Virus record (IMG/VR): IMGVR_UViG_3300030104_004638
Coordinates: 1-29,596 of that record
DNA length: 29,596 bases
Reading direction: 5' to 3' (one strand)
Source of the DNA: a virus
In this document: piece by piece, positions 8,516 to 24,593 of the stretch
Position numbering within the stretch: position 1 is the first letter of the stretch
Layout: every line of letters begins with the position of its first letter
Position numbers and translations under genes: made by a program
The notes under the pieces: model-generated
What the model was told of the DNA's origin: nothing
The model's input: only the letters and a program-made list of their open reading frames with translations
Databases searched by the model: none

Positions 8516-9507
8516 TATAAATTAACGGATTTATAATATAAAAATACTGTTAAATGTATATCTCCAGTAGGATTACTAGGATCAGCATATAGCTCTAAAG
8601 GCATACCTAGAGTAGTGTTTATAGGAGATTTCAAAGGTATTTCTACTCCAGCAGGAGGCCCACTAGCTGCAAAAGCATCTCCATTAACCTGATATAACTG
8701 ATTATCTCTAGCTCTATAAGCAAATCTATCAATACTACTCCAGTAATGTCCAGGCCTAAAAGATCTCAGCCAACCTACATACATACCATAAGCTGTAATT
8801 TCTGGATTTCCTACTATATTTACTACAATAGTACAGCTTAAAGGAATATGTAAAATCCCAGCACTTCCAGCTAATAAAGTATAGGGATTTGAGTTTAAAG
8901 CTTGATATTCAGCAGTAGTTATTTCATATCTTTTTAATAAAGGTACATTAGATAGTCTTTGAGTCTGTACTTTATAATCAGGTACTATTAAACTACCAGA
9001 AGGAAAATTATCTGAAAATTTAAAAACAGTAGGAGTTATTTTTATTAATGTACCAGAATCCATTAAATCTACACTACACATAATTCTAACACTTTTATAA
9101 GTAATAGTATTATATATCCAAAAATAGTCGCCCCTTCTAAGTAGATCTATTCCTAAATGACCTGTAGGATTAGCTATATAAATTACATCATGAGTACCAG
9201 GCTTTATTTTAATAGAAGTTTCAGCTATAGCATTATCACACAAAAACAAATAAAAGGGATTAGTATATCCAGGAGAATACTTAGCACTCCATCCCCTTTT
9301 AATAGGACTAGCTCCAGCATTAGTATCTCCCCCCATATAGCCAGTAGTACTAGGATTCCTATTTCCATCCCATCTATACTGAGTTTTTTTTCTAGTATTA
9401 TTTAACTGAGTTAGAGTATGTTGTTTTTTAGGAGCTAGATAATTATTACCAGGCCTTTCCTTTTTTTTCTTTTCAAGATTTATATTTTTACCAAAAGGTT
9501 TAGCCAT
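8515..9507 (-). CDS. putative tail fibre / receptor-binding protein
   Basis: A 330-aa protein. The N-terminus (1-60) is basic and disordered-looking. Residues about 70-185 are beta-rich, with a GD/Y-rich section. The C-terminal region (about 190-330) begins EITTAEYQALNSNPYTLLAG, continues with hydrophobic strands, and ends DIHLTVFLYYKSVNL. That arrangement (an [IV]-t-a-e-l-L-n-a-P..L-v-a start and a ..l.v.iyYr.v.l end) is a beta-sandwich type seen in phage fibre and adhesin proteins. It directly follows the large tail-tip gene (8-bp overlap), the usual place for a host-recognition protein. Confidence 0.55.
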   Translation of the reverse strand: MAKPFGKNINLEKKKKERPGNNYLAPKKQHTLTQLNNTRKKTQYRWDGNRNPSTTGYMGGDTNAGASPIKRGWSAKYSPGYTNPFYLFLCDNAIAETSIKIKPGTHDVIYIANPTGHLGIDLLRRGDYFWIYNTITYKSVRIMCSVDLMDSGTLIKITPTVFKFSDNFPSGSLIVPDYKVQTQRLSNVPLLKRYEITTAEYQALNSNPYTLLAGSAGILHIPLSCTIVVNIVGNPEITAYGMYVGWLRSFRPGHYWSSIDRFAYRARDNQLYQVNGDAFAASGPPAGVEIPLKSPINTTLGMPLELYADPSNPTGDIHLTVFLYYKSVNL

Positions 9508-12430
9508 TACTACTATATGTTTTATCTATTATATTAGTTCTATTAAAAGTAACACAATCCTCTAAGGATAATGTAATTTGACCAGTACCAGCTACATAAG
9601 TGAAACCATTTACTATATATCCTACATCAGCTCCTGATTGATTTTCTTCCCATTTATTTATATTACTAGGCTTAATTATAGCTGAGCCTAGCCTTCTCTC
9701 TATACATTTATCTGAAGTACTGTCTACCATAGTAAAATCTAAACCTCTTTTCATTTGAAAATAATGAGATAAAGCATTTTTAGGCCTTTGCTTATGTAAA
9801 ACATCTCCAGCAACAGCAGCCCCAGCCTCCCACACAGCTCTCCAGTTTAATACATCATCATTTTCTATAGGATTACCTAAATCATTAGCTTCTTCTATTA
9901 TTCTAAACTCTCCAGGAAAATCTCCACCAAAACCTCCACTACCTCCTTCTGATACAGCAAAAGGATCCTCAGGGGGATTACTACCTATTACTATCTCAGG
10001 CTCTTGTACCATTTCCTCAGATGGAGTACCATTTGTATTTTCATACCAGCCTATAGTTTCATCAAAACTATTTACCCCAGCATTTACTCCAGCTATATTT
10101 ACTCTTAAATCTGATAAATAGTAATCCCATTGTAAACCCCTAGCCTCACATCCGAAACCTCCTACTATTGTATATGGAGGTACATCTCCTCCAGTTCCTA
10201 AACTAGCATAATCCCAGCTCTTACAGGCTGCTCTTTGTGTTACAGGTATATTAGGATCAGGAGCTGGTAAATAAGGATCATTAATAGGTAAAGAGCAATC
10301 ATCTACACCTAGTAAAGTAAATAAAGCTATTTGTCTAATCATATTAGCTCCATAATTACCATCTCCATCTTTACCTACTGGTATTTTAGGAGATTGAATA
10401 AAAAAAGTTTCACTATGCCTATAATTTTGACAATCATAACCCCATGGAGTAGCATTAGTAGTAAGCCATTCCACCCAGCTACCAGGATCATCACAGTTAA
10501 AAGATACACATCCATTAGTATAAAGTACAGTAGGCTTATGAAATACTGGAGAAAAAAAGGCCCATCTACAATCTATAGGAGATTGACTATCGGCTGCTGG
10601 AGATGAAGTTCTCCACCATCTATAATCATCATAACCACTATCTAACCCCCATTGTTGTACTCCCTGTATAATATAAGATGTATTATCAGGAAAATTAGGC
10701 CAGTATCTTTGACCTGACCATCCCCCATTATATCCATATACATTATTAGGATAAGTATAATTTTCAAAAGCTCTCATATCATTCAAATAAGAGCTACCCC
10801 AAACAGGAAAACCTGTACCCCTTTGTATACTCCATGGAGTACTTCCAGCTAATCTAGCAAATCTTATATTTGTTAGCCAAAAAGCCTCACTTCTATAATT
10901 ATTTCCATCAGGTAAAGTATAAGGCCCAGCATCATCTCTAACCCAAGTTAAAAGCCTTAAAGCCAATCTAGGCATAATAGTAGCAGTTTCTTCTATACCA
11001 TATTGAGTATTACCAAAACTATCAGGAAAATTAGAGCCTCCATAATAATTAAAAGCATCTCCAGCTGAATCATATCCCACTAATCCTCCTGATGCTACTC
11101 TACTCCACATCTTAGGATATAATTCACAATTACCAGTAATTACTATAGTTTGTTTACAAGTCCTGTCATTATTTGCTCCAGTCCACCCAGGAGCTGATTC
11201 ATTACTAACCCCAGTTAAATCATAAGCTGAAAAACCAGCATTAAAAGAGGTAAGAAAATCAAACTGTCTATAAGTACCACTAGATACAGATCCACTCTCA
11301 GAAGTAGTTTGATTCCAATTAGTTTTAACTTCTGCTGGCCCCATGTGTAAACCTAAAAAATTCTTATGATTGTAAATACTTTTATAATTTAATAAGGGAG
11401 GTAAAAATAATTCTTTAGCTCCACTTAATATAGTACCCCCCTGAGAAGGATCATCAATAAACTCAGAAATCATTTTCATATCCTGATCTGTACTAGCATC
11501 ATCATCAGCTAACTGAGCTGTATGAATCATATAAAGTTGATCCCCAGTATCTAAATTAGGATTATCAGATGAGTTATGATTTATTAAAGGAGCTTGTAAA
11601 AACCAAGTACAGTTACCAGTATAAAATCTAGTACCTCCACTAAACTGAGAATCCCACAGAGGAGTCATCATTATCCTAAGCTGAAAACAAGATAATATAT
11701 TTTCAATTATTTTATAATAGCTCCAGTTTTGACCATCTTTATCTTTAAAAGCCATACTACTAACTTTTGTTAAAGCTAAAGGATCATGATCTTCATCATC
11801 CCTCCATAATGAGCTACTGATATTACCCATAGCTTTATTATAATAAAAAGGCTGATGAGTTAAAAAATTTTCTGTTGTAGAGCTTCCAATAGTCCAAAAA
11901 CCAAAAGTAGGATCACTAGTAGTAATCTCCATTAATCCAGCTTTTATATAATATAATAAACTTCTTATACCTTCCTGATCGGGCTTTAATTTTTTATATT
12001 TTAATTGAGCTAATCCATCTATAGCCTTTATTTTAATAAAATTAGTAGGAGAAATATCTTCCATAGATCCTAAATCTCCAAGTATTACTCCTATCCAATA
12101 TCTTCTCCAAGATGTACCTGTATATCTTTTTATTTCTAAAGCTAATTCCCCTTCATTATCTCCTGAAACAGCTAGTATATCATCTACTATACCAGCTTGA
12201 TCTGTATTACCATCTTCTATTACAAAATTAAAATTTACAGAAGTCGTTTTAATAGGAGCTAACATAGTATCATCACTACCATCCATTTTCAATACAAAAC
12301 CTTTAGAGGTACATTTAAAAGGTATAGTAGTACCAGTACCAGTTTTTTTATGGATGTTTATTTGATACCTAGATTCTACTCCATTATCATACTGACTATA
12401 AAATTCACTTTGATATTTTATATAAGCCAT
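9500..12430 (-). CDS. large tail-tip / baseplate hub protein
   Basis: The largest protein of the window (976 aa). The N-terminal 150 residues are beta-rich and end FIKIKAIDGLAQLKYKKL. The A-x-DGLaxLK motif is typical of hub-like tail-tip proteins of Bacteroidota and marine phages. The long middle (about 200-780) is rich in Trp, Tyr, Gly and Pro. The end (about 880-976) has a compact domain finishing in a TYVAGTGQITLSLEDCVTFN segment. It follows the tape measure and a small membrane protein, where the distal tail and hub genes normally lie. It probably combines hub and adhesin roles, as no separate Dit or Tal genes are seen. Confidence 0.68.
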   Translation of the reverse strand: MAYIKYQSEFYSQYDNGVESRYQINIHKKTGTGTTIPFKCTSKGFVLKMDGSDDTMLAPIKTTSVNFNFVIEDGNTDQAGIVDDILAVSGDNEGELALEIKRYTGTSWRRYWIGVILGDLGSMEDISPTNFIKIKAIDGLAQLKYKKLKPDQEGIRSLLYYIKAGLMEITTSDPTFGFWTIGSSTTENFLTHQPFYYNKAMGNISSSLWRDDEDHDPLALTKVSSMAFKDKDGQNWSYYKIIENILSCFQLRIMMTPLWDSQFSGGTRFYTGNCTWFLQAPLINHNSSDNPNLDTGDQLYMIHTAQLADDDASTDQDMKMISEFIDDPSQGGTILSGAKELFLPPLLNYKSIYNHKNFLGLHMGPAEVKTNWNQTTSESGSVSSGTYRQFDFLTSFNAGFSAYDLTGVSNESAPGWTGANNDRTCKQTIVITGNCELYPKMWSRVASGGLVGYDSAGDAFNYYGGSNFPDSFGNTQYGIEETATIMPRLALRLLTWVRDDAGPYTLPDGNNYRSEAFWLTNIRFARLAGSTPWSIQRGTGFPVWGSSYLNDMRAFENYTYPNNVYGYNGGWSGQRYWPNFPDNTSYIIQGVQQWGLDSGYDDYRWWRTSSPAADSQSPIDCRWAFFSPVFHKPTVLYTNGCVSFNCDDPGSWVEWLTTNATPWGYDCQNYRHSETFFIQSPKIPVGKDGDGNYGANMIRQIALFTLLGVDDCSLPINDPYLPAPDPNIPVTQRAACKSWDYASLGTGGDVPPYTIVGGFGCEARGLQWDYYLSDLRVNIAGVNAGVNSFDETIGWYENTNGTPSEEMVQEPEIVIGSNPPEDPFAVSEGGSGGFGGDFPGEFRIIEEANDLGNPIENDDVLNWRAVWEAGAAVAGDVLHKQRPKNALSHYFQMKRGLDFTMVDSTSDKCIERRLGSAIIKPSNINKWEENQSGADVGYIVNGFTYVAGTGQITLSLEDCVTFNRTNIIDKTYSSNG

Positions 12431-12616
12431 TTAACAGCAGTTTTTATGCTTTTTTCCTTTTTTATTTCTATTAGGTACTATAGCATTTATTATTTTATCT
12501 ATATATGTAAATACCTGATTATCTTTTTCAGTAGGAGTTAAATTTACTATTACCTTAGCTAAAGCTAAAACAGCAATAAGTAACTCTAAAAAATTTGATT
12601 GTATAAAATCTATCAT
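12431..12616 (-). CDS. small membrane protein between tape measure and tail tip
   Basis: A 61-aa protein with a hydrophobic helix at about 8-27 (NFLELLIAVLALAKVIVNL), a PTEKDNQVFTYIDKIINAI amphipathic helix, and a very basic tail ending KKHKNCC. The T-P-t-x-x-D-x-x-F-x-x-I-D-k-I pattern recurs in small phage membrane proteins from Bacteroidota, sometimes labelled holin-like, but the function is not established. The two terminal cysteines are unusual. Its place inside the tail block is odd for a lysis gene. Confidence 0.62.
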   Translation of the reverse strand: MIDFIQSNFLELLIAVLALAKVIVNLTPTEKDNQVFTYIDKIINAIVPNRNKKGKKHKNCC

Positions 12617-12631
12617 AATATATAATTTAAG

Positions 12632-15070
12632 TTAAAAATTAGTAGCTGATCCTGATACTCTATCTTGACTTATTGTACTTCTAGTATTACTTAATAAAAT
12701 ATCACTACCTGAAATAGTACCATGTAATAAACCTCCTCCTACTCCCCCTATCATTCCTTTAAGTTTATCTAGTGGAGCTATTACTTCAGGATTAATAGCT
12801 GATGTTCCTGATCCCTCTCCTACATAAGCTAAAGTAGGCCCTGAAACAATACCCCCCTCAGCAAAAGGAGGGATAATAGCATTAAATATACCTCCTACTA
12901 CTATACCAGCAGTAGCCGCTAATATAGCATTAGCTGGCCAGGGCAATCCTTTTAAAGCACTAGCCGCCCAAGATGCAGTACCTTCAGCTATTTTAGTTTT
13001 AATAATATCTCTAGCAGCTGATTTAGTTTGTTGTACCATAGCTCCTAAACCTCCATCCTGACTATTAGCCATTTGTTCAAAAGCTGAGGATGTTTGCTGT
13101 TCTAACATAGATAGAGTTTCTTGCATTTCCTCAGTATCTAGGCTTCCCTTAATTTTTATTATAGGATTACCTTCTTCATCTACTTCTCCCTCTCCATCTC
13201 CTAAATTAATATCATCTATATTTAATACTCCATTTAACTCTACAGGATCTACTCCTTCATCTCCCCCTCCCATTAAATCATCTAATACACCTCCACCAGC
13301 TCCAGTTATAGTAGATATGATATTATCCATTCCATTTTTTACTTTACCTAAAGTTCTATCTACATCTTCCTCAGTAATAAATTCTACTTTTTCTTTAGAC
13401 TGGATATTATTTAAAGCATCATCCCAGTTTTTTTTAGTTTTATTAGCAAAAGCCTTAGCATCATCTCCCATCTGTTGCATAGCTTTCTTAAAATTAGGAG
13501 CTGGATTTCTAAAATTTATTACATCTTCTATAGCTCCCCCTATAGCTCCTAATACAGTTTTAACATTACCAAACATAAATTTTATATAATCCCATACAGT
13601 TTTAAAAGCAAATTTTAAAGTTTCTACAGCTACTTTAAATAACATAGATTCATTATATAAATCTATAAAACCATTTACTACCTCTACTATTTTTTTCTTA
13701 GTCCATTCCCAGTTTTTTATAAGTAAACCCACAGCCGCCACAATAGCTCCAATAATTAAACCAGCTGGCCCCATAGCAAATAAGGCTTTACCAGCTGAAA
13801 TAATAGCCCTCCCAGCCATTCTAACCACTTTTACCACAAAACCAAAAGCAGTAGTTAATTTTCCTATAATCATTAAAGTAGGCCCTATAGCTACTAAAGC
13901 TAATCCTATTTTAACTATTTTCTCTCTAGTTTCTTCACTTAAACTAGAAAAAGTTTTAGCCATTTTACTAAATACTCCAGCTAATTTAGTAGCTACAGGC
14001 ATTAAACTCTCTCCTAGTTTTACCCCAGCTACCTGAAGATCAGCCATAGCTTGTTTAAATTTAAAAGCTGAAGTTTGAGAAGTTTCATCAAAAGCATCAT
14101 TTACAAAACCCTGAGCATCTTCCATACTCCCTAAAATTTCTGTATAGCTTTCAGTTTGTGTACCTAGTACACCTAGTACTCCTTTTAAGGCTTGAGATTT
14201 ACTAAAAAATTCTGATAAAGGTATTCCAGCTGAGTTAAATTGTTCCTGTAAAAACATCAGAGTTTGTTGTAAACCCTGTTCTCCTAGCATAGTTCTTAAA
14301 TCATCAGCACTCATAGCTCCCCCCTCTAATCCCTGGGTAGCCTTTGCTAAAGCATCAGCAGCCTTAGGAGTAATCTTAGCAAAGCTCATCATAATTCCTG
14401 ATAAGCCAGTAGTAGCATCAGTAGCAGAGCCTGTAGTTCTAGTATAAGTAGAAATCATACTACCTAGCTCCTCCATGCTTATACCTAAATTAGATGCTAA
14501 ACCTAGCTGGGATCCTAGTACATTCGCCAGTTCCTCACTTTTGAACATACCAGTTTGTACCATAGTACCGAAAATATCTAAGGCTTGAGATGATGATAAA
14601 ACTTCTTCTCCATAGGCATTTTGAGCCGCCGCCGCCACAGTAGCCAAAGCCTCCATATCTCCTAAACCAGCGGCTGATCCTTTTGCTGTAGCCTCTAAGG
14701 CTCTTAAAGCTGATTCTCCATCTAAACCAGCTGAAGTTAAAAAGTATAAACCTTCAGCTAATTGATTAGGAGCTGTAGCAGTTTCTCCAGCTAAATTTAA
14801 AACAGAATCAGAAAGCTGATCTACAGCATCTTTAGGTAATCCTACTAGAGTTTGAATTTTAGTCATAGAGGACTCAAACTCAGAGGCTGTTTTAACAGCC
14901 GCAGCTCCAATACCAATTAAAGGTAAAGATACTCCAGTAGTAAGAGAAGATCCTACATTACCTATTTTTTTACCAAATTTATTTAGCTTACCCTCTACTT
15001 GTTTAAGACCTGAAGTAAAGGCTTCAGAATTAAGTTTTAAAAATACAGATAATGTTTTATTAGTACCCAT
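12632..15070 (-). CDS. tail tape measure protein
   Basis: An 812-aa protein. Residues about 30-270 match the TP901-1-type tape-measure domain: SLTTGVSLPLIGIGAAAVK, FESSMTKIQTLVGL, FLTSAGLDGESALRALEA and related segments. A hydrophobic stretch follows (about 385-450, with KIGLALVAIGPTLMIIGK and AAVGLLIKNW), then a helical and acidic linker (about 590-640) and a Gly/Ala-rich C-terminal membrane-like segment (about 695-735). The protein sets tail length; at about 0.15 nm per residue, 812 residues would suggest a tail somewhat over 100 nm. It follows the chaperone pair directly and starts right after the T stop. Confidence 0.92.
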   Translation of the reverse strand: MGTNKTLSVFLKLNSEAFTSGLKQVEGKLNKFGKKIGNVGSSLTTGVSLPLIGIGAAAVKTASEFESSMTKIQTLVGLPKDAVDQLSDSVLNLAGETATAPNQLAEGLYFLTSAGLDGESALRALEATAKGSAAGLGDMEALATVAAAAQNAYGEEVLSSSQALDIFGTMVQTGMFKSEELANVLGSQLGLASNLGISMEELGSMISTYTRTTGSATDATTGLSGIMMSFAKITPKAADALAKATQGLEGGAMSADDLRTMLGEQGLQQTLMFLQEQFNSAGIPLSEFFSKSQALKGVLGVLGTQTESYTEILGSMEDAQGFVNDAFDETSQTSAFKFKQAMADLQVAGVKLGESLMPVATKLAGVFSKMAKTFSSLSEETREKIVKIGLALVAIGPTLMIIGKLTTAFGFVVKVVRMAGRAIISAGKALFAMGPAGLIIGAIVAAVGLLIKNWEWTKKKIVEVVNGFIDLYNESMLFKVAVETLKFAFKTVWDYIKFMFGNVKTVLGAIGGAIEDVINFRNPAPNFKKAMQQMGDDAKAFANKTKKNWDDALNNIQSKEKVEFITEEDVDRTLGKVKNGMDNIISTITGAGGGVLDDLMGGGDEGVDPVELNGVLNIDDINLGDGEGEVDEEGNPIIKIKGSLDTEEMQETLSMLEQQTSSAFEQMANSQDGGLGAMVQQTKSAARDIIKTKIAEGTASWAASALKGLPWPANAILAATAGIVVGGIFNAIIPPFAEGGIVSGPTLAYVGEGSGTSAINPEVIAPLDKLKGMIGGVGGGLLHGTISGSDILLSNTRSTISQDRVSGSATNF

Positions 15071-15358
15071 TTAATTAGATTTTTTAGAATTTTTATTAGC
15101 TTTATTTATTAGGTACATAGCTTTCTTTCTTTCTTTATCTATATCTTTTATAGTAGATTGTTTCTCCCAATCAAATTTAATTAGGTCAGTTTGCTTTATT
15201 TGATCCTTCCTCTTGCGATCTTTATTTATAAGAGCTGTAGTTTGAAATCTTACTCTCTCCCACTCCATCCTCTGTAGCATATCTTCAAACTCCTTCCTAC
15301 TATCTAGTTTTAGCTGTAATTGTCTAGGAGTAAAATCCCAAAACTCAGCTACACTCAT
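15071..15358 (-). CDS. tail assembly chaperone, T-type part
   Basis: A 95-aa frame that begins in the sequence as MSVAEFWDFTPRQLQLKL, the typical gpT-like motif (..s..eFw..tp.el...) of tail assembly chaperones, followed by a charged helix rich in Lys. The ATG at 15358 is probably not the main start. The frame is open upstream through EGEEEITSPSIEDLFGLATG to the A10 run in the G gene, so the main product should be a G-T fusion made by -1 slippage. The chaperone coats the tape measure before tail-tube assembly. Confidence 0.75.
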   Translation of the reverse strand: MSVAEFWDFTPRQLQLKLDSRKEFEDMLQRMEWERVRFQTTALINKDRKRKDQIKQTDLIKFDWEKQSTIKDIDKERKKAMYLINKANKNSKKSN

Positions 15359-15750
15359 ATCTAAAAAACCAGTAGCAAGGCCAAATAAATCTTCAATACT
15401 AGGAGAAGTTATTTCTTCTTCTCCTTCTTTTTTTTTTCTGAAGGATTTAACTTAGCTAAAGATCCACCGAAAATCTCCATAGCCTCATTAAATACCCCCA
15501 TCCCTTCATCATCTATCCAATCAGCTACATCATCAGCAGTAAATTTAAAAGACTCTTTATTTCTTCTAGCTCCATGCTTTAATCCACAATATATAAGCTG
15601 AATAGCAGAGCTTAAAGATATATTTTGCCCTAAACTTCCTAACTCTTGTAAAGGAGTATTTGTTATATCACACCACTCTCCCAAAGCCGCAAATCCATAA
15701 TGGATAGGCCTCATTTCGCCACCTATTGCTATAGTTTTTTTATCTACCAT
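15071..15750 (-). CDS. G-T fusion tail assembly chaperone (programmed -1 frameshift)
   Basis: The G frame runs into ten consecutive A residues (T10 on the plus strand at 15428-15437). Slipping back by one base leaves the G frame, which would otherwise stop at TAA about 20 nt later, and enters an open frame: after the lysine run it reads EGEEEITSPSIEDLFG, then LATGFLD, and joins MSVAEFW of the T part. This is the standard G/GT arrangement of long-tailed phages, located immediately before the tape measure gene. The junction and frame are seen in the sequence; the slippage itself is inferred. Confidence 0.72.
15409..15750 (-). CDS. tail assembly chaperone, G-type part
   Basis: A 113-aa protein. 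The N-terminal beta segment (TIAIGGEMRPIHYGFAALGE) and the acidic helices that follow (LSSAIQLIYCGLKHG, then FTADDVADWIDDEG) match the fold pattern of small G-like tail chaperones. It ends in a Lys run encoded by an A10 tract (NPSEKKKKEKKK), where -1 slippage gives the longer G-T protein. It is preceded by an intergenic 58 bp with an 8-bp inverted repeat, and follows the two tail-tube genes as expected. Confidence 0.78.
   Translation of the reverse strand: MVDKKTIAIGGEMRPIHYGFAALGEWCDITNTPLQELGSLGQNISLSSAIQLIYCGLKHGARRNKESFKFTADDVADWIDDEGMGVFNEAMEIFGGSLAKLNPSEKKKKEKKK
15428..15437 (-). promoter_or_regulatory. A10 slippery site for -1 frameshifting
   Basis: A run of ten A residues on the coding strand near the 3' end of the G gene (frame 0: GAA AAA AAA AAG). 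A -1 shift here enters the T frame with no stop. G-rich GAAGGAGAAG follows immediately downstream. Confidence 0.7.
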
Positions 15751-15760
15751 AATTATTAAT

Positions 15761-15782
15761 TTTCTTTAAATATATAAAGAAA
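15761..15782 (-). other. hairpin in the leader of the chaperone gene
   Basis: TTTCTTTA (15761-15768) and TAAAGAAA (15775-15782) are a perfect 8-bp inverted repeat with a 6-nt centre, ending about ten bases before the chaperone start codon. It is all A/T except for one G-C pair per stem, so it is weak as a terminator. It may tune translation or decay of the chaperone mRNA. The rest of the 58-bp gap has a G6 run on the minus strand and no recognised promoter. Confidence 0.45.
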
Positions 15783-15808
15783 AAAAATACAATATATACC
15801 CCCCTATT

Positions 15809-16267
15809 TTAAGCATCAGTTAAAGCTCCACTACCCTGAATAGAAACAGAATATGTAGCCCATTCTGATATACCAGCATTAATAGAAATAGAAGTAATAT
15901 AACCCTCTCCAGTATATTCTCTAGCTCCAGTTTGACCAGTAGTATTAGAAAATTTAACATGAATCTTATCTCCTGATTCTAATACTGGATACCATCCACT
16001 ATCAGCAGTAGCTCCTCCTACTGGTATATCAGCACTATCAGAAGTACCATCAGTAAAATAAGCTTCACAGTCTAAAGTCCAGCTCCTAGCTCCATTTATA
16101 AATTCTTTATTTCCCTGAGATTGCTTATTTGTAACATCTATAGTTTCCTGATTAATGTTTAAAGTACAAGTAGTAGAGCCTCCTACAGCAGTATAAGAAT
16201 ATGGAGCAGTTCCATCTAAATCTACTGATAATACGAGATTACTCCCTGAAATTGTTTTAACAGCCAT
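15809..16267 (-). CDS. major tail tube protein, copy 2
   Basis: A 152-aa beta-rich protein: AVKTISGSNLVLSVDLDG at the start, CTLNINQETIDVTNKQSQG in the middle, a RSWTLDCEAYF core motif, and GYITSISINAGISEWATYSV with SIQGSGAL at the end. This is the TP901-1-type tail tube pattern (S-W-x-x-x-x-E/D-g..., G.g.it..s..g......y...l.G.G.l). It is clearly related to the gene just upstream, sharing SWTLDCEA, GYITS and SIQG.G.L. The subunits stack as hexamers to form the tail tube. Confidence 0.85.
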   Translation of the reverse strand: MAVKTISGSNLVLSVDLDGTAPYSYTAVGGSTTCTLNINQETIDVTNKQSQGNKEFINGARSWTLDCEAYFTDGTSDSADIPVGGATADSGWYPVLESGDKIHVKFSNTTGQTGAREYTGEGYITSISINAGISEWATYSVSIQGSGALTDA

Positions 16268-16300
16268 TTTTTATTATTTTTTATTATTACACATTTATTT

Positions 16301-16753
16301 TTAAGCCATAGATAGAGTACCAGTACCCTGTATAGATATACTATAAGTACCAGCATCTTCAGTACCTCCAGTTATACTCATACTAGTTATGTAACCTGAT
16401 CCATGAAACTCATTACTACCAGCATCAAAATCTACATAAACCTCTCTAGGATATTGTACTACTCCATTTTGTGATGCATTAGCATCTCCATAAGCTGCTG
16501 GAAACATAGTTGTAGGATTTTTTACCCCAGCATCCTCATTATAGAAAGCTTCACAATCTAAAGTCCAAGAGCTACCCAAGCCTATAAATTCTTTTCTATC
16601 TCCTGAAGATTTATCGGTAACCTCTCCCATATCTATAGTAAGATTTACAGTACATGAAGTAGCCGCAGCGATAACAGCAGCTCCACCCTGAGTAGGAGAT
16701 GTATCATCATCTATTTTTAGTACCATATTAGTACCATTAATTACTGTAGCCAT
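16301..16753 (-). CDS. major tail tube protein, copy 1
   Basis: A 150-aa paralogue of the next gene: NGTNMVLKIDDD at the start, CTVNLTIDMGEVTDKSSG, SSWTLDCEAFYNED, and GYITSMSITGGTEDAGTYSI with SIQGTGTL at the end. By eye the two proteins share roughly 35-45% identity, highest in the last 30 residues, with the largest difference in the loop after the SWTLDCEA motif (about residues 68-110). They are separated by only 33 bp of A/T-rich sequence. Tail tubes are usually built from a single protein, so two copies suggest a mixed tube or a division of roles. Confidence 0.83.
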   Translation of the reverse strand: MATVINGTNMVLKIDDDTSPTQGGAAVIAAATSCTVNLTIDMGEVTDKSSGDRKEFIGLGSSWTLDCEAFYNEDAGVKNPTTMFPAAYGDANASQNGVVQYPREVYVDFDAGSNEFHGSGYITSMSITGGTEDAGTYSISIQGTGTLSMA

Positions 16754-16756
16754 ATT

Positions 16757-16975
16757 TTAACTTTTTAAATTTTTACTTTTATTATTATCTTTTTTATCTT
16801 CTTTTTCAGTTTTTGTTATTTCTGTTTTTTCTTTTTTTTCTTTTATTAAATTATATTCATCTTCTATTAAACCTAATTCATATAATACTTTATAAGATTG
16901 TATATCTACTGGATTAGCTTTATCTCCTTTTCTTTTACCTTTACCATCTTTTATAATGTTTACTAAATATCCCAT
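16757..16975 (-). CDS. small charged protein between tail terminator and tail tube genes
   Basis: A 72-aa protein. The N-terminal 40 residues (MGYLVNIIKDGKGKRKGDKA followed by a short helical piece) look like a mini-domain. The C-terminal half is a low-complexity Lys/Glu/Thr/Asp tail (IKEKKEKTEITKTEKEDKKD). No family recognised. It is in the late block between structural genes, 3 bp upstream of the first tail-tube gene, and could be a minor virion or assembly factor. Confidence 0.6.
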   Translation of the reverse strand: MGYLVNIIKDGKGKRKGDKANPVDIQSYKVLYELGLIEDEYNLIKEKKEKTEITKTEKEDKKDNNKSKNLKS

Positions 16976-16982
16976 TTTAAAA

Positions 16983-18437
16983 TTATTTTAGTTGTTCATA
17001 TTTATTATAAATATATTCTTTTACTTTTTTATATATTATATCTGTAGGCTGGAATGGAGCAGTATCTTCATCTTTATTATGAGTCTGAGCTTCATTAGGT
17101 ATAAACATTAAAAACTCATACATCCTAAACCCTTTAGAGGAAATACCAGCATGGCCTATACTTTTAAAACTAAAATTACTACCTACTGTAGACTCCATAT
17201 TATCAGTATTACCAGTAATTAGATTATCTTGTAAAATTTGTCCAGTAGTTAATTTAGGATTATAATTTGAGTTAAAATACTCATACCATCCAGCCTGATT
17301 AACATTTCCTCCAGTATAATTTTTACTACCCCCCAAAGATAAGCATAAAAAATGATAATCACCTACCCAATACTTGCTATCATCTGTAGAATTTATTAAA
17401 GTTCTCTCTCTACTAGCTCCAGTAAAACTATTAGCATGAGGATTAAAGTGGATAGTAATAGTAGATCCTACTTTTTTATGAGATAAAAGTATAGGATTAA
17501 AATTAACAGCATCATACTGATTACCTAAAATATAATTTTCTCCATCCTCTCCTACTGGCTTATATACCATTATAAACATAGCCCCATAGGGCAAAAAAAT
17601 AGAATTATCTCCTATTATTTGAGATGATGCCCTACTCATTAAATTATTCCTAGTAGAAAAATATAAAAAAGGCTTAGTATTTTCTACTATTCCATCTTGA
17701 TATTTAGGCATATATGTAGGATTAGCTACATCACTAGATCTCAAATAAGAATAAAAAGTATCATTATAAAAAGTATTAGTAGCTGGATTTATACATAAAT
17801 TTTTAGTAGTTCCTAGTTTATTAAATGAATAAACTACAGTAGAATTATCTGATAATTTTTTATCATAATCAACACCTCCACTAAAAGGAGAAAGATCATC
17901 TCTCATTAAATTAACCTGAGTAAAATCACAGCATAACATTAGAGGATTAGTAGGAGTTTTATTATTTGAATTTTTTAAATCATAACTTAATCTAATAATA
18001 TCATAATAATAATATACATCATACTCTACCCTTTTAGTATATATTTCTAATTTATCAAAATAATCATCTTCCTCCTCTTGATAAAAAATATGAGATATAT
18101 CTACATTTCCTATAAAACTATGATTATTACCATTCTCATAATATCCAGGTACTTCAGCTAATCCAGCTGATGTTTTATCTACATAAATATCTAATACATC
18201 TCTTATTTTAGTATTTAAAATTTCTACTTCTTTATAACTTTTAGCTATAATCTGTAAAGTTAATCTATTATATAATATATTAGGGGAGTCATCTTTAGAA
18301 GTTTCAGGATCATTATAGTTATGATATACTACTACTGGATAATCTACATTCTGAGGCACTACATTAGGATATATACCTCCAGTAGCTAAATCAGAGATTT
18401 TACTTTTAAGGATTTTATATATTGCTTTTCCTATCAT
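16983..18437 (-). CDS. tail terminator (DUF3168-like) fused to a LamG/ConA-like domain, copy 2
   Basis: A 484-aa protein. Residues 1-145 resemble DUF3168 tail terminator proteins: YPNVVPQNVDYPVVVYHNYN, RLTLQIIAKSYKEVEILNTK, then a LEIYTKRVEYDVYYYY strand. A second region (about 160-484) is beta-rich with a LamG/concanavalin-like plan: KPFLYFSTRNNLMS (a ...l.F.....l. strand), GAMFIMVYKP (the central strand), and a closing FRMYEFLMFIPNE...YKKVKEYIYNKYEQLK segment like the E-i-l-i-y...v..yl..KY ending of LamG-like domains. A normal tail terminator is about 130 aa, so the extra 330 residues are the oddity. Its start overlaps the stop of its paralogue (TAATG). Confidence 0.68.
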   Translation of the reverse strand: MIGKAIYKILKSKISDLATGGIYPNVVPQNVDYPVVVYHNYNDPETSKDDSPNILYNRLTLQIIAKSYKEVEILNTKIRDVLDIYVDKTSAGLAEVPGYYENGNNHSFIGNVDISHIFYQEEEDDYFDKLEIYTKRVEYDVYYYYDIIRLSYDLKNSNNKTPTNPLMLCCDFTQVNLMRDDLSPFSGGVDYDKKLSDNSTVVYSFNKLGTTKNLCINPATNTFYNDTFYSYLRSSDVANPTYMPKYQDGIVENTKPFLYFSTRNNLMSRASSQIIGDNSIFLPYGAMFIMVYKPVGEDGENYILGNQYDAVNFNPILLSHKKVGSTITIHFNPHANSFTGASRERTLINSTDDSKYWVGDYHFLCLSLGGSKNYTGGNVNQAGWYEYFNSNYNPKLTTGQILQDNLITGNTDNMESTVGSNFSFKSIGHAGISSKGFRMYEFLMFIPNEAQTHNKDEDTAPFQPTDIIYKKVKEYIYNKYEQLK

Positions 18438-19954
18438 TAGTTAGTAATTCTATTTAACATGTTATGCTTTTCTATAATTTGTCTTTTTATTTGTAAATAC
18501 TTACTACTTCCAAAGGTTAAGGCTTCAGGCCACATAACAAAATCATATAAATTAAAAGGATCATTCATATTGAAAGTACCAGCTCCTAAAGTATCATAAC
18601 TCCCTATATCAGTATGTATAGTTTCAAAATTAAAAAAACCCTCTTTAAAGTATGTAGTAGCATTATCACTCCAACTACTATACTCATTTTCATCCCCATA
18701 AGCAGTAAAATCTGAAGATGTAATCAATTCATACTGTCCCTCTATTACAGTATTATCTCCTTCTCTTAATTTAAAACTAACAGCAAAAAAGAAGGGATCT
18801 TCAAAACTTAAATCAGTAAACATCCCAAAAAGAGGCCAAGATACTATACCACTAAAAAAATTAAAACCTCTATGATTATCAGCTCCAGCATTATTTTCTA
18901 AAGCCATACCTCCCCCATTAAATTTAGTTAATTGCATAGCAGTACCCCCAGCTTGTACCTCAGTATATAAAAAAACAGATGCTATAGAGTTAGTATTAGC
19001 ATTTTCTTTAAATAAAACATTAGCACATTTACCAAAATCATAAGATTGAGGTATTCTAAGTACTGTAAAAAAGGTTAATTCTTTATATTTTCTAGCAACT
19101 CTATTAGGGCCATGTTGAGATTTTAAATAATTACTAGTATCAAATTCTAGATAAAAATTACTATTATATTTAGGAGGATTAGATATATCTTTTTTTAATG
19201 TAGGCCTACTAGAATTATTAGCCATAGTACGATTAAAATTTTCATATACTCCATCTAAAGTAGAATTAATTATATTAGGATTATCACTCTGTAAAACTGA
19301 TGGAGAAAATAAATAATTTACTTGCTCATTAATTTGTATGGGCTGCCTATATCTAGGATTTGCTGTAGCTATAGGATTATAAGCCATTAAATTAAAATCA
19401 GTAAATTTTAAATTTACATCAGCTCCCCAAATACTTAAATCATCTACATATACTAAATCAAAATTTAAAGTACTTCTATATATTTCTAATTTTTCATCAT
19501 AGGATTCAGTTATAGAAATAAGTTCAATAAATTGAATCTGTAAACCTCCTACATATTGTACATCTCCAGTACTAGGAGGAGGAAAATCTCCAAAATTATA
19601 AGGAATAGAAGAAATAGGAAAACCAAAACCTACACTAACAGAAGTAGCACTATTATAAGAATTTTTATATCTATGTAATTGATTAGATATTAAAGTAGAT
19701 AGAGATGATATATCTGAATATGTTTTAGATAAAATATCTAAATCTATAGATACTATATTATTAGGAGATCTAAGTTCTTTTATCTTATCAGGAGATGTTT
19801 TTTCTATAGTATAAACTACACAGGGATAAGATGTATTCTGAGGCTTTACATTAGGATATAATCTATCATTTAATATATTTTGTATTTCATACTGAGGATT
19901 ATCAAAACTAGTATCATCTCCTAGTAATAACCATTTTAAAGCTTTACCTACCAT
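18437..19954 (-). CDS. tail terminator (DUF3168-like) fused to a LamG/ConA-like domain, copy 1
   Basis: A 505-aa paralogue of the next gene. The N-terminal domain (1-175) shares YPNVKPQNTSYPCVVYTIE, SIDLDILSKTYSDISSLST and the YDEKLEIYRSTLNFDLVY strand. The C-terminal part (about 185-505) is beta-rich: FYLEFDTSNYLKSQ, ELTFFTVLRIP, PFFFAVSFKLREGDN and the closing LYDFVMWPEAL...YLQIKRQIIEKHNML, again a LamG-like start and end. It directly follows the gp10-like gene, the standard slot for the tail terminator that caps the tube and meets the connector. The added domain would sit outside the neck or tail and could bind glycans; that is inference. Confidence 0.68.
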   Translation of the reverse strand: MVGKALKWLLLGDDTSFDNPQYEIQNILNDRLYPNVKPQNTSYPCVVYTIEKTSPDKIKELRSPNNIVSIDLDILSKTYSDISSLSTLISNQLHRYKNSYNSATSVSVGFGFPISSIPYNFGDFPPPSTGDVQYVGGLQIQFIELISITESYDEKLEIYRSTLNFDLVYVDDLSIWGADVNLKFTDFNLMAYNPIATANPRYRQPIQINEQVNYLFSPSVLQSDNPNIINSTLDGVYENFNRTMANNSSRPTLKKDISNPPKYNSNFYLEFDTSNYLKSQHGPNRVARKYKELTFFTVLRIPQSYDFGKCANVLFKENANTNSIASVFLYTEVQAGGTAMQLTKFNGGGMALENNAGADNHRGFNFFSGIVSWPLFGMFTDLSFEDPFFFAVSFKLREGDNTVIEGQYELITSSDFTAYGDENEYSSWSDNATTYFKEGFFNFETIHTDIGSYDTLGAGTFNMNDPFNLYDFVMWPEALTFGSSKYLQIKRQIIEKHNMLNRITN

Positions 19955-20404
19955 TTACATCCAAAATTTACCTATTAATTTTTTTACACCTTCTATAATT
20001 AATTTAGCTGTAATTCCTTTGGTACTTTCAAAAGCATCAGCCAAAAAGGGAGTACTTTTTTCAGTCATTCCATCTCCTCTAGTTTTGTGAGGATAGGCTG
20101 CAAAAGCTACATACCAGCCCTTATTTCTATCTTTTTTTCTATACCTAGCTCCTACTCTTACTCCTGTTTTAGTTCGCCACCTACCTACTGATTTTTTAAG
20201 TATTTTAGTTTCATCTGTAGGAGCTAAATCCTTCATAATTGAAGCCATGGGCTTAGCTGCATTAAATACTATTTTATTTATTTCTGTATTAGCCTTCCTA
20301 GCTGAAAATTTATCTTTAATACGATCTAATCCCCTAATAAGAGATTTTAAATCATCATTATCAATATCTAAATCTATTGCCCTGTTTTTATTTCTAGCAC
20401 TCAT
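19955..20404 (-). CDS. HK97 gp10-like head-tail/tail-completion protein
   Basis: A 149-aa protein starting with the DDLKSLIRGLDRIKDKF helix, followed by INKIVFNAAKPMASIMKDLA, a basic middle (GRWRTKTGVRVGARYRKKD), WYVAFAAYPHKTRG and a closing helix. This is the arrangement of the HK97 gp10 family found between head-closure and tail-terminator genes. It probably acts in joining or completing the neck. It overlaps the upstream gene at the stop/start (TAATG). Confidence 0.82.
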   Translation of the reverse strand: MSARNKNRAIDLDIDNDDLKSLIRGLDRIKDKFSARKANTEINKIVFNAAKPMASIMKDLAPTDETKILKKSVGRWRTKTGVRVGARYRKKDRNKGWYVAFAAYPHKTRGDGMTEKSTPFLADAFESTKGITAKLIIEGVKKLIGKFWM

Positions 20405-20778
20405 TATAGATTATTATCAGTAAGATTACATCTTATTATTATTCCTTTACCTCTACCTAGTGTTTCCATACTCATTACATTCCAGTATTTACTTTCATAT
20501 AATATCTCAAAATAATCTTCAGGAGAAATAGTAGAGCTGTTCATCTGTAAATCAGAATCATATCTCACTAAAAAATTTATTTTGCTTTCAGCTCTTATAG
20601 TATCATCTTCTACTTTCTCATTACCTTTAGTACCAGTAATAACTAATTTAGCCCATACAGTTTTAAGTAGAGCTTTAGTTTTAGTAATTTCTCCATACTC
20701 ATTTTGAGCATTAGTATTATAATACACATCTATAGGAGTATCTAATTCTCCAGCTTTTAAATTTTCACTTTTAGCCAT
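20404..20778 (-). CDS. head closure / head-tail joining protein
   Basis: A 124-aa small beta-barrel-like protein: AGELDTPIDVYYNTNAQNEYG at the start (the l...i.i.....d..G pattern), VWAKLVI, a FLVRYDSDLQ strand and DYFEILYESKYWNVMSME near the end, all typical of phage head-tail joining proteins. It should seat on the connector ring and close the capsid after packaging. Placed between the gp6-like and gp10-like genes, as in HK97-type genomes. Confidence 0.82.
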   Translation of the reverse strand: MAKSENLKAGELDTPIDVYYNTNAQNEYGEITKTKALLKTVWAKLVITGTKGNEKVEDDTIRAESKINFLVRYDSDLQMNSSTISPEDYFEILYESKYWNVMSMETLGRGKGIIIRCNLTDNNL

Positions 20779-20781
20779 TTT

Positions 20782-21438
20782 TTAGTATGTTTTAAATCTA
20801 TATGGATCTAATAAGTATTCAGAGGCCTTAGGTAATCTACTTACACTATCCTCTCTTTTTTCATACATAAAACCAATTATAAGTAATATAGCTGATTTTA
20901 TAGCTTCAGGTACATCACTAGCTCCAGTACCATAACCAGCTTTAAATTTAATCTCTATAGCATCAGCTCTATCATATACAGTAGGAAAACTAATACTCTT
21001 TTGAATTTCTACAAATCCTTTTTGATTAATAAAAGTATGTACTGAGTAATCTGTATTTTCAGTCCATGTTATTTGAGTATTACTAGAATCATAATACTTA
21101 ATATGTGTAATACTATCTAAAGGAGCATAAGGTAATACTATTTGATTTAAACCATCTTTACCTACAAAACCCCCAGTAGTTAAATAAGTACCATTAGATA
21201 AGCTAGTAGTATAATGATTAGATACATAAACATCATCCCAAGTTTCCATATACATAGTATATTGAGTTTCTAAAAATCTACTATTTGTATAATTCTGAGC
21301 CACTTCTACAGCTGCTCCTATCATAGTAGTTATTAAAGTATCTTCAGCAGTATTAGTAACCCTTAAAAAACTTTTAGCTGTAGCTAAAGGTATTAAATCT
21401 GTATATGTAGAAGTAGAATTTAATTGTAATTTAACCAT
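20782..21438 (-). CDS. gp6-like head-tail connector protein
   Basis: A 218-aa protein. The LATAKSFLRVTNTAEDTLIT segment with the following TMIGAAVEVAQNYTNSRFL helix is the signature of the phage gp6-like connector family (AK.yLRv....D..i..li.aA...v..y.gr). The middle has strands and the acidic Y/W motif ETWDDVYV; the C-terminus has AIKSAILLIIGFMYEKRED, the final helix, then SRLPKASEYLLDPYR. It forms the ring beneath the portal. It is the first gene after the terminator that follows the major capsid gene. Confidence 0.88.
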   Translation of the reverse strand: MVKLQLNSTSTYTDLIPLATAKSFLRVTNTAEDTLITTMIGAAVEVAQNYTNSRFLETQYTMYMETWDDVYVSNHYTTSLSNGTYLTTGGFVGKDGLNQIVLPYAPLDSITHIKYYDSSNTQITWTENTDYSVHTFINQKGFVEIQKSISFPTVYDRADAIEIKFKAGYGTGASDVPEAIKSAILLIIGFMYEKREDSVSRLPKASEYLLDPYRFKTY

Positions 21439-21456
21439 TTTAAACCTTTATAAAAT

Positions 21457-21488
21457 AAAAAAGGAGGAGGTACTCCCCCCTCCCTTTT
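21457..21488 (-). terminator. intrinsic terminator after the major capsid gene
   Basis: On the minus strand a G-rich arm (AAAAGGGAGGGGGG) pairs with CCTCCTCCTTTTTT, leaving a short AGTA loop and ending in a T6 tract. G-U wobbles work only in the minus-strand RNA, which supports that orientation. It lies between the capsid stop and the connector start, with no clear promoter after it, so partial read-through is expected. Confidence 0.78.
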
Positions 21489-21509
21489 AAAAATTAATAA
21501 CTAAATATA

Positions 21510-22751
21510 CTAAGCTACTAGAGTAGTATATTTAACAAAACTAGCTCCACTAGCTACCTTCCAGTCATAGTGTTGATTTACTACTAATCTTACAGCATTT
21601 TCAGTAGCCGCAGAATAAGGATCTACTAAAATTGAAGTAGGCCCAAAAGTAGCAAAATAAACTCTAGAGAAATCTCCAAACATTCCATCTCCACTAACAC
21701 CAGCAGAAGATGCTGGAGCAGATGAGAAATATCCAGGATAACCAGCTAAGCTATTATCTACATATAATGGAAAAGTAGATGTTACCTGAGCCTCTTGCTT
21801 AATAGCTGAGTATAATTCAAAACTATTTACAAAACCTAGATTACCATCTAATCCATGGTCATTAGCTATAGTTTGAATAGCCTCTAACATATCACTAGCA
21901 ATAGATCCAGCTCCAAATGTAGCCTCAGTAAATGTAAGAGTACCAGTAGTACCTACAATACATCCAGGCCCAGCCGCAGCATTAGTACTAGCAAACATAT
22001 TAGCATCTATTTTATTAGCTATTTGTCTACCCATATCTCTCATGATAGCCGCCTCTGCTCCATTTCCATTTTGCATTAATATAACATTACTAACATTAGC
22101 ATATCCATTAATACGATTAGGAGATAAAGTAATTTTACTAAAATCAGCTGAAGTATCAGCACCAGCCGCATTTTCAGCAGCCCACTCTACAGCATTAGCT
22201 CCAGTAATAGGTACTACTGTATCAGCAGCCAAAGTACCTAAATTAGTTACTCCTACTTGATTATATAAAGCTCCTTCTACTAAAGCATCAGCAAAAGCCT
22301 CAACAGCTACAGGCTGTATCTGAGATGCAGTCTGATCTACTATAGCTCTTTTTTCAGCTTTATTAGTCATAAAACTAGGTAATCCTATACCATTCATAGC
22401 TCCTCTATTCTCATTTTCAGCCTCTTGATGCATTTCTTTCTCTACACCAGTTAAGCCTCCATTCTGAATATCTCTTACAGCTTTAAATAAGCTCCAAGAT
22501 TTCATCTCTTTTTTAGCAATATCTTCAGTATTTTGTACAGACATATTAACAGCTATAGATTTATTTAGCTGCTCTTGTCTTTCAGCTATTGCAATTTTTT
22601 TATCTAAAGCTTTAATTTCTGTATCAAAACCTTCCCAAGACTTGCTTTCATCTTCAGATAAATCTCTATCTTCAGACTTTGCAGTATCCAATATAGCCTC
22701 CATAGTTTCCACTAGCTCAGCTCTATTTTCTTTTAAAGTAATTGAGTTCAT
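21510..22751 (-). CDS. major capsid protein, HK97 fold
   Basis: A 413-aa protein. Residues 1-105 form a charged coiled coil, the delta/scaffold domain (LKENRAELVETMEAILDTAK, ETEIKALDKKIAIAERQEQL-like spacing). The remainder is the HK97-type shell domain, with the N-arm around AIVDQTASQIQPVAVEAFAD, the A-domain and the GDFSRVYFATFGPTSILVDP strand near the end. Expected cleavage by the upstream-encoded protease falls near residues 105-130. It is followed by a strong terminator. Several Ala-Ala pairs here use GCG GCT codons, a feature of this genome. Confidence 0.93.
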   Translation of the reverse strand: MNSITLKENRAELVETMEAILDTAKSEDRDLSEDESKSWEGFDTEIKALDKKIAIAERQEQLNKSIAVNMSVQNTEDIAKKEMKSWSLFKAVRDIQNGGLTGVEKEMHQEAENENRGAMNGIGLPSFMTNKAEKRAIVDQTASQIQPVAVEAFADALVEGALYNQVGVTNLGTLAADTVVPITGANAVEWAAENAAGADTSADFSKITLSPNRINGYANVSNVILMQNGNGAEAAIMRDMGRQIANKIDANMFASTNAAAGPGCIVGTTGTLTFTEATFGAGSIASDMLEAIQTIANDHGLDGNLGFVNSFELYSAIKQEAQVTSTFPLYVDNSLAGYPGYFSSAPASSAGVSGDGMFGDFSRVYFATFGPTSILVDPYSAATENAVRLVVNQHYDWKVASGASFVKYTTLVA

Positions 22752-22753
22752 TT

Positions 22754-23401
22754 TTAATACAATTTTTTAAGTTTTAATAATTTGATTTTTTTATCTAACA
22801 ATTCTCTCTTAATTTGGTATTCATCTTGTTTCTTGTTTTCTTGTTTTTCTTTTTCAGTTCTATAATTTAAAAAACTTCTTTTACCTACTTCAGCATCAGG
22901 ATAAGCTGGATATACTACTGGAGATACATCTAATAACCTACCCACCTTTTTAATAGTTCTTATAGTCATTCCATTCTCATCTTCATCCCAATCATCCTCC
23001 TCTACTATAAAACCAAAACTAGACTGAGTTATATTACCATTTTCTAAATTGACTAATAAATCATTACCTGTAGTAGTATCAGGAGCTGTAAAATTATATT
23101 TTAATCCTCTCTCATCTACTGATAAAGACAAAGTACCAGCTGTAGTCCTTCCTAGTATTAAATTAGGATCATGATTAAATAAAGCTCTTACATCATTATC
23201 TAATACTGAATTAAAAGCCTCAGGATCTATTTTTTCTCTAAACCCCCCTAAATTTTCTGATAAAGCTGGATTACCTTCTGTATCAGTAAACACACTAGCA
23301 TATCCTACTACTTCTCTACTTTCAGAATTTTCAACCCTTATCTCTGAATTAGTAAAATTTCTTCTCTCTAATCCTTCTATTTTATTTTTATTCTTATCCA
23401 T
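22754..23401 (-). CDS. HK97-type prohead protease
   Basis: Starts best at ATG 23401 (MDKNKNKIEGLERRNF), which overlaps the portal stop; an ATG six codons upstream at 23419 is possible. The core REVVGYASVF, ALFNHDPNLILGRT (catalytic His in NHD) and TQSSFGFIVEEDDW (catalytic Ser) match the family, with the Asp/Glu partner in the last strand (LLDVSPVVYPAYPDAEVGKR). The C-terminal Lys-rich helix is likely self-cleaved. It trims the capsid protein's delta domain during maturation. Confidence 0.92.
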   Translation of the reverse strand: MDKNKNKIEGLERRNFTNSEIRVENSESREVVGYASVFTDTEGNPALSENLGGFREKIDPEAFNSVLDNDVRALFNHDPNLILGRTTAGTLSLSVDERGLKYNFTAPDTTTGNDLLVNLENGNITQSSFGFIVEEDDWDEDENGMTIRTIKKVGRLLDVSPVVYPAYPDAEVGKRSFLNYRTEKEKQENKKQDEYQIKRELLDKKIKLLKLKKLY

Positions 23402-24593
23402 CTTGATTATTATTATCATTATTAGTTTTACCTACACCCCCTAAATTTAAAGGTACATAGTAATCATTAGCTCCCTCATCTTCTACCTTATTCATATCTT
23501 CCATAGATCGTATATCATTAGGAGATAAAGCTCCTACATTAAATAGTTTAGTATAGTAATCAGCTCTACTATTTACATCTCCTCTCAAAAGTTCATTAGT
23601 TCTAAACTTACAAAAATGAGTAGATTGTTCTTTAGTACTTAATAGCTTTCTATTTAACTCTTGCTCCCAGTTTATTAAATAAGGAGTTAAAGAGTATTTA
23701 GCAAATTCTAGAGATTGCTGTTCTATATTAGAATAAGTACTCCTAGATAAATCTCCAATAAGATGAGGAGGTACTCTAAATATCCTAGCTATTTCAGCTA
23801 CTGAGAAATTTCTACTATCTATAAAAGCCGCATCTGCTAAAGGCATAGCTATAGGCTTAAATTTAGTTCCATTTTCTAAAACAGCTGTACTATGAGAATT
23901 AGCTAATCCTGAGTATCTATTTGCCCATGATTGCCTAAGCCTATTAGCCGCATCATCAGTAAGTACTCCAGGATGTTCTAATACTCCTGATAAATTAGCT
24001 CCTTTAAAAAAATTAGAGCCATATTGCTGAGTAGCCAATCCAAAGCCTACAGCTTCTTTATTAGCTTGTATAGGAGATTTGCCTACTAAACCATCAAAAG
24101 ATAAACCTACTATATGTAGTATCTCCATAGAGCTAAAAGTACCTAAATCTTTTACCTTATAATATGTTTCTCCATCATCTCCTACAGCTACCTCTACTTT
24201 ATCAGGCTGGAGTATTTCTAAAGATATAGGCCTACTACCTCCATTCCTAATAATTAAACAGTAAGCATTACCCCAAAGAAGTAGGCTATTCATTAAAGTA
24301 TTTCTCCATGTAAAGGAGGTATATTTAGAGTTAGGAGATGTAGATAACAGCTGATTAAGAGGAATTTTCTCATCTATATACTTAGATCCATCTTTATCCT
24401 TCCGATACACATTTAAGGGCAAACTACTTATAGTTTCTGATAACAATCTCACAGCTGCCCATACAGCTGGTAATCCTATAGAATTATCTTCACTAACTCT
24501 GACTCCACTAGAGCTAGAGCCTACAGCTCCTATAGTAAAGTTATTAGCATTTCTTTTTTCTTTTGACTTATAAAAAAAATCTAGTAATCCCAA
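23394..24593 (-). CDS. phage portal protein (HK97 family), TTG start
   Basis: A 399-aa portal protein. ISLPAVWAAVRLLSETISSL-like N-terminal helix (seen as GLPAVWAAVRLLSETISSLP), PLNQLLSTSPNSKYTSFTWR, NAYCLIIRNG, PLADAAFIDSRNFSVAEIAR (the F-V-e-I-a-r-i-F-r-v-P region) and PPHLIGDLSRSTYSN are all family hallmarks. The frame has no ATG before residue about 96: an in-frame TAA lies just upstream and the only sensible starts are TTG at 24593 (or the ATT before it). It forms the dodecameric DNA gate. It begins a new transcription unit after the cassette terminator. Confidence 0.9.
   Translation of the reverse strand: MGLLDFFYKSKEKRNANNFTIGAVGSSSSGVRVSEDNSIGLPAVWAAVRLLSETISSLPLNVYRKDKDGSKYIDEKIPLNQLLSTSPNSKYTSFTWRNTLMNSLLLWGNAYCLIIRNGGSRPISLEILQPDKVEVAVGDDGETYYKVKDLGTFSSMEILHIVGLSFDGLVGKSPIQANKEAVGFGLATQQYGSNFFKGANLSGVLEHPGVLTDDAANRLRQSWANRYSGLANSHSTAVLENGTKFKPIAMPLADAAFIDSRNFSVAEIARIFRVPPHLIGDLSRSTYSNIEQQSLEFAKYSLTPYLINWEQELNRKLLSTKEQSTHFCKFRTNELLRGDVNSRADYYTKLFNVGALSPNDIRSMEDMNKVEDEGANDYYVPLNLGGVGKTNNDNNNQDG

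Follow-up and report, generated by a model that had tools for sequence, protein, structure and literature searches.

Paired tail-terminator-like proteins with predicted ConA-like C-terminal domains in the siphophage module of an uncultured virus

Two adjacent genes, here called A and B, fill the place of the one tail terminator in an HK97-type siphophage module of the window that we analysed, one linear IMG/VR virus record of an uncultured virus (29596 bases, 29.5% G+C), and each is predicted to join a terminator fold to a ConA-like jelly roll. A tail terminator is generally viewed as a small assembly protein with a single gene copy. The initial annotation had proposed, for positions 16983-19954, a pair of terminators fused to ConA-like domains, and this proposal stood up well. 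Both open reading frames are present on the minus strand, the sequence motifs that had been quoted occur in A and B, and structure prediction followed by a fold search of both full proteins gave a terminator N-domain and a sandwich-type, ConA-like C-domain in each. Beyond that annotation, we found that the C-terminal parts are related to each other and that the major tail protein gene downstream has been duplicated as well. As an overall explanation, we think it probable that A and B are tail caps whose ConA-like domains act as exposed adhesins at the neck.

All nameable genes of the window lie on the minus strand. In the order of transcription, the head part encodes the small terminase subunit, a DNA methyltransferase, the large terminase subunit, portal, protease, major capsid protein, adaptor, stopper and Neck1, and these are followed by A, B, an ORF of 72 aa, two major tail proteins, two small tail ORFs, the tape measure protein and a protein of 976 aa (Table 1). 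The ORFs of A and B overlap by one base.

Table 1. Features of the neck and tail region of the window, with the evidence for each assignment
Feature	Position	Strand	Evidence
Gene A, 505 aa: predicted tail-terminator fold (1-172), predicted ConA-like jelly roll (~172-502)	18437..19954	-	profile, AF2 model
Gene B, 484 aa: predicted tail-terminator fold (1-147), predicted ConA-like jelly roll (~145-482), variable first part	16983..18437	-	profile, AF2 model
Neck1 / HK97 gp10-like tail completion protein, directly upstream of A	19955..20404	-	phrog_5 1.8e-9
Stopper / head completion Hc1	20404..20778	-	Pfam Phage_HCP 43.6 bits, cut-off 25
Adaptor Ad1	20782..21438	-	phrog_442 2e-23
72-aa ORF between B and first tube gene	16757..16975	-	comparative genomics
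Major tail (tube) protein copy 1, TP901-1-like	16301..16753	-	phrog_1407 1.7e-17; Pfam Phage_tail_2
Major tail (tube) protein copy 2, TP901-1-like	15809..16267	-	phrog_1407 4.6e-28; Pfam Phage_tail_2
Tape measure protein	12632..15070	-	phrog_1533 4.6e-64

Profile matches, predicted fold and gene slot agree in showing a predicted terminator core in both proteins. The N-terminal 173 residues of A align with 147 residues of B (E = 2e-11, 27% identity), as expected from the likeness noticed earlier, and both match the 'tail terminator' family phrog_347, A at 1.7e-9 (residues 24-98) and B at 4.2e-6 (residues 2-124). The more specific label of a DUF3168-like terminator fared less well, because Pfam Tail_completion_gp17 (PF11367), which we take to be the former DUF3168, stayed below its cut-off of 24.5 bits for both proteins (15.4 and 17.5 bits). 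AlphaFold2 (AF2) models, for which 21 sequences of A and 27 of B were aligned (some of them partial), reached a mean pLDDT of 79.3 with a pTM of 0.80 for A, and 80.4 with 0.78 for B. In a fold search of the PDB, residues 1-171 of A matched the RcGTA terminator (Z 15.6, 124 residues, 2.3 Å), and residues 1-146 of B matched a connector chain of phiXacJX1 (Z 15.4, 113 residues, 2.4 Å) and the RcGTA terminator (Z 14.5). T5 p142 was matched by A with Z 13.4 and by B with Z 13.8 over 131 residues, and phage lambda gpU was among the matches of both; no BppU-type N-domain was among the matches listed. A PDB sequence search with the A and B alignments returned nothing relevant. The slot itself, between Neck1 and the major tail protein, is the same in phages CSJC and HB10c2.

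The C-terminal parts of both models, from about residue 172 in A and residue 145 in B, are ConA-like jelly rolls. For both, the best fold match was the tailspike of the cyanopodophage Pan3 (PDB 9vyh), with Z 16.6 over 252 residues at 4.2 Å for A and Z 17.6 over 231 residues at 3.2 Å for B. GH54 arabinofuranosidase also matched both (Z 14.2 for A, 14.7 for B), as did clostridial neurotoxin binding-domain chains (Z ~14 for A, ~12.5 for B); the fold is widely shared and has no bearing on toxicity. Alginate-lyase structures were found among the matches of A, and PilC pilin and trypanosomal sialidase among those of B only. ConA-like folds are common, and sugar binding is not universal among them. 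At the level of sequence families, the C-terminal parts had no Pfam match at E up to 1, the full proteins matching PF11367 only, and at E up to 0.1 no member among 21 for A and 27 for B matched a LamG/ConA model. NCBIfam gave no match for the C-domains at E up to 0.05, and tblastn of these domains against INPHARED gave none at E up to 1. The initial annotation had called these parts LamG/ConA-like, and because no LamG/ConA Pfam model matched at E up to 1, the LamG label holds for the predicted sandwich fold and not for a sequence family. No other ORF of the window convincingly resembles the C-domains (best other E 0.026).

A relationship between the two C-domains emerged from profile-profile comparison. 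With hhalign they scored 48.1 (probability 84.5%), when reversed profiles gave 24.2 and 23.9 and none of 30 column shuffles exceeded 25.7. The full-length proteins scored 154.6 over 436 columns. Single-sequence profile searches did not show the link, since A met the C-profile of B at E 0.057, when an unrelated ORF reached 0.026, and B met that of A at E 0.49. As A and B are related over both domains in the profile-profile comparison, the whole two-domain gene looks, from the sequences, to exist twice. In a tree of terminator domains A forms one clade (97/85) and B another (90/70), and in a tree of tube proteins the two copies likewise form one clade each (100/99, 84/60), so both pairs predate the lineage sampled here. 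Some short terminators stand beside A or B in the terminator tree, on long branches. Constraining A and B into a single clade was not rejected (p-AU 0.093), and a single fusion followed by duplication is thus allowed, not proved; constraining the two tube proteins together was not rejected either (p-AU 0.371).

Relatives were collected by scanning IMG/VR with patterns from A, B or the tube protein, which makes the sample a non-random one. A first scan with A alone as the query was empty. Counting once per contig, B was found in 27 other IMG/VR contigs and A in 22. A scan with the alignment of the A C-domain gave 21 loci, 20 of them on contigs already known for A; the new locus, L090, is likewise a terminator fusion. 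In every contig that shows both slots, B comes after A (21/21), with a spacing of -7 to +3 bases except in L032 (+48), and the complete proteins measure 472-524 aa for A and 460-499 aa for B. All C-domains with a visible N-terminal side are attached to a terminator core (21/21 for A, 21/21 for B). The ORF of 72 aa has a relative in 20/23 contigs that run past B, being missing in L032, L036 and L037.

More distant relatives have a short terminator in the slot. This was seen in 12 contigs, of which eight have one tube protein and a terminator of 135 aa, three (L060, L067, L068) have two tube proteins and a terminator of 136-143 aa, and one (L019) has a terminator of 111 aa and ends shortly after it; in L066 the terminator profile found no match. 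Among six INPHARED phage records examined, the five with annotation also have one short gene in this slot, of 118-136 aa. Annotation identifies it in CSJC and its position in HB10c2, and in the remaining three genomes it was recognised by tblastn to the L064 terminator. No intermediate was seen among these contigs, neither a single fused terminator with both slots visible nor two short ones. Searched with tblastn, INPHARED contained no relevant record for full A and B at E 0.01, and at E 10 the N-domain of B had five weak partial matches, in jumbo phages only. Control genomes carrying phrog_347 offered no useful starting point for surveying more broadly.

The major tail protein downstream of B is also duplicated, and two tube proteins are present in 22/22 contigs of the A/B lineage that reach far enough. 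A duplicated tube needs no duplicated cap, as shown by L060, L067 and L068 with their single short terminators. The tube copies of L060 and L067 group together (97/95), the second copy having 250-256 aa, and this pair looks, on the tree, like a separate duplication. In these three contigs the second tube copy (L060 6451-7221, L067 3345-4097, L068 3127-3879) has ~100 extra residues, possibly a tail decoration.

In T5 (PMC11784142) and R4C (PMC10276861), the terminator has a loop or beta-hairpin whose tip docks into the tube ring beneath. In our alignment of this hairpin, for which 20/21 A rows and 20/27 B rows were long enough and which includes some near-copies, the tip has a lysine in every one of these A and B rows (20/20 each) and in 9/10 single terminators, the exception being L019, and its neighbours are copy-specific, A and B each having a signature of their own. 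The tip is modelled at pLDDT <50 in both proteins, so its placement is taken from the alignment. As both copies keep it, both look like working tube-contacting caps. We propose that A and B are tail-terminator subunits that would cap the tube at the neck, with a ConA-like domain on each C-terminus, and that both would still dock on the tube through the hairpin tip.

The simplest arrangement of such caps would be one six-membered ring in which A and B alternate (3 A + 3 B), above a tube made of the two tube-protein paralogues, and we hold this mixed ring tentatively, at slightly below even chances. The three-fold/pseudo-six-fold rings of T5, as described in the excerpts of PMC11784142, would be in line with it. 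The main rival is that A and B form two separate, stacked homohexameric rings, or are used at different steps. We rate this rival as rather unlikely, even though A and B are old and distinct clades, some contigs combine two tube proteins with one short cap, and in T5 a homohexameric cap sits on a three-fold tube (same excerpts of PMC11784142). What speaks against it is the tube-contacting tip with its lysine, kept by A and B alike, when a stack would leave only one of the rings on the tube. We know of no neck with two terminator rings.

The terminator core would bring the ConA-like domains to the neck, where a ring of six mixed subunits would carry six of them around it. These six domains may be auxiliary adhesins that bind host or particle glycans and so aid adsorption. 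A role as glycan-binding neck adhesins seems to us the likely one, on the strength of the tailspike-like fold, the faster change of these domains described below and the example of the lactococcal 936 phages, in which two carbohydrate-binding modules (CBMs), one of the tail and one of the neck, have been shown to bind host cells (PMC6669499, in excerpt). The full picture is more speculative: two kinds of lectin-bearing terminator would make up a mixed 3+3 ring above a tube of two components, and what is usually taken for a plain six-fold cap would itself have turned into a heteromeric adhesion collar with two specificities. We offer this as a possibility that may well turn out otherwise.

Rates of change were compared in six close pairs, not all independent since L007 is used twice. 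The dN of the C-domain of A was above that of its N-domain in 6/6 pairs, and 2.4-2.9 times as high in the four pairs with any N-domain difference; for B it was higher in 5/6 pairs. Throughout the six pairs dN/dS was <1. In A, dS was also higher in the C-domain (6/6 pairs), and recombination or segment exchange may therefore account for some of the divergence. Across 17 matched genomes (136 pairs), the mean identity of A was 52.5% in the N-domain and 42.6% in the C-domain, and that of B 50.0% and 49.8%. Faster change of the C-domain is thus clear for A and is seen for B only at short range, and the equal conservation of the two domains of B could reflect a structural role or a constant ligand.

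A purely structural role is the chief alternative to that of adhesin. The ConA-like domains would then bind no sugar and would stabilise the neck, by fixing the cap to the stopper, to the capsid vertex or to the first rings of the tube. Besides the conservation of the C-domain of B at the level of its ring domain, such a brace would agree with the absence of any contig of the lineage, among those with a visible slot, that lacks the ConA-like domains, and with the extra structural domains, for example for sheath contact, that some larger terminators have (excerpts of PMC11784142). We nevertheless consider it unlikely, given that the nearest fold match of both C-domains is a phage tailspike, that the C-domain of A has 2.4-2.9 times the dN of its ring domain in those four close pairs in which the ring domain differs, and that the more distant relatives do without a ConA-like domain altogether. 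That the C-domains are enzymes of ConA-like fold, glycoside hydrolases or polysaccharide lyases that clear host polysaccharide, is quite improbable, although the fold matches include GH54 (both proteins) and alginate lyase (A): no profile of a glycoside hydrolase or a lyase matched, A has just 8 invariant columns from residue 265 on, and no catalytic set was recognised by eye. An assembly artefact, or an oddity of one contig, might be feared in a record of this length from an uncultured virus, but with the A and B pair in 21 other contigs from many metagenome sets it hardly deserves consideration.

In their N-domain profile, predicted fold and gene slot A and B are like the terminators of siphophages (lambda gpU, T5 p142, RcGTA, phrog_347). 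Those are single, however, whereas here there are two paralogues, each with an extra C-terminal part of >300 residues that bears the predicted ConA-like jelly roll. The nearest analogue is the neck passage structure (NPS) collar of lactococcal 936 and P335 phages, as it appears in excerpts of PMC6669499 and PMC10747895, where domains of carbohydrate-binding type surround the neck, as the ConA-like domains of A and B would by virtue of their terminator core. The NPS is a different, separate protein, described there with a BppU-like N-terminal domain, in some cases a coiled-coil stem, and CBMs of other folds, and in A and B the added domain is instead fused to the cap itself. Major tail proteins extended by a CBM (936, PMC6669499) and 'evolved' Dit proteins (JBD30 and R4C, PMC11445458 and PMC10276861), again from excerpts, combine a tail subunit with a domain of carbohydrate-binding type as A and B do, but belong to the tube or the distal tail and not to the terminator. 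The Pan3 tailspike, although the best fold match of the C-domains, has 9-11% identity to them and is named a tailspike, not a neck protein; a paper on it was not found in the open-licence literature searched.

Terminators with other added domains are already known. T4 gp15 and the longer neck or tail chains of P1 and phiCD508 in the PDB have a terminator-type fold plus extra residues, like A and B. In the excerpts of PMC11784142, the additions of larger terminators are connected with the sheath in contractile tails, or with repetition of the terminator fold in PVC16, and a ConA-like addition is not mentioned for them there. For a terminator fused to a lectin-like domain we found no described case, either by tblastn in INPHARED or in the open-licence literature searched, and papers that mention a tail terminator together with concanavalin concerned, in the parts available, separate proteins or unrelated uses of the word. 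The claim of novelty is limited by a BFVD search with the model of B only, in which longer proteins (398, 532, 385 and 404 aa, those of 398 and 532 aa nameless) align with a long stretch of B at an rmsd of 17 Å or more and leave room for other long terminators. If the proposal is true, a platform for adhesion can be built on a tail cap, and a six-fold tail ring can split into two specialised subunits. The two cap genes, the two tube genes and the relatives with short terminators would provide a genetic handle on neck-aided adsorption to cells or particles.

Information on the host was sought by tblastn of the portal, terminase and tube protein against INPHARED, and all matches were below 60% identity and came from phages of many hosts. 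Scans of genome contigs with the alignments of B and of the tube protein found no relative. Several of the related contigs have IMG sample numbers that are presumably marine.

Compared with L003 over window positions 9500-24593, the head and neck genes are 83-94% identical, and A, B and the tail genes 42-77%, except for an ORF of 61 aa at 95%; this drop suggests a tail-module exchange with a break near the junction of Neck1 and A. Between L023 and L026 the major capsid proteins are 79.9% identical and the adaptors 99.5%, which looks like an exchange of the capsid gene. The protein of 976 aa after the tape measure (window 9500-12430) had a single weak PHROG match, and its relatives had the top dN among the genes compared in two pairs, with dN/dS of 0.61 and 0.85 on partial ORFs; perhaps it is a distal tail or receptor-binding protein. 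The window also encodes an HNH endonuclease (954-1319), a metallo-phosphoesterase (5178-5924) and a peptidase M15 (6313-6822) that is perhaps the endolysin.
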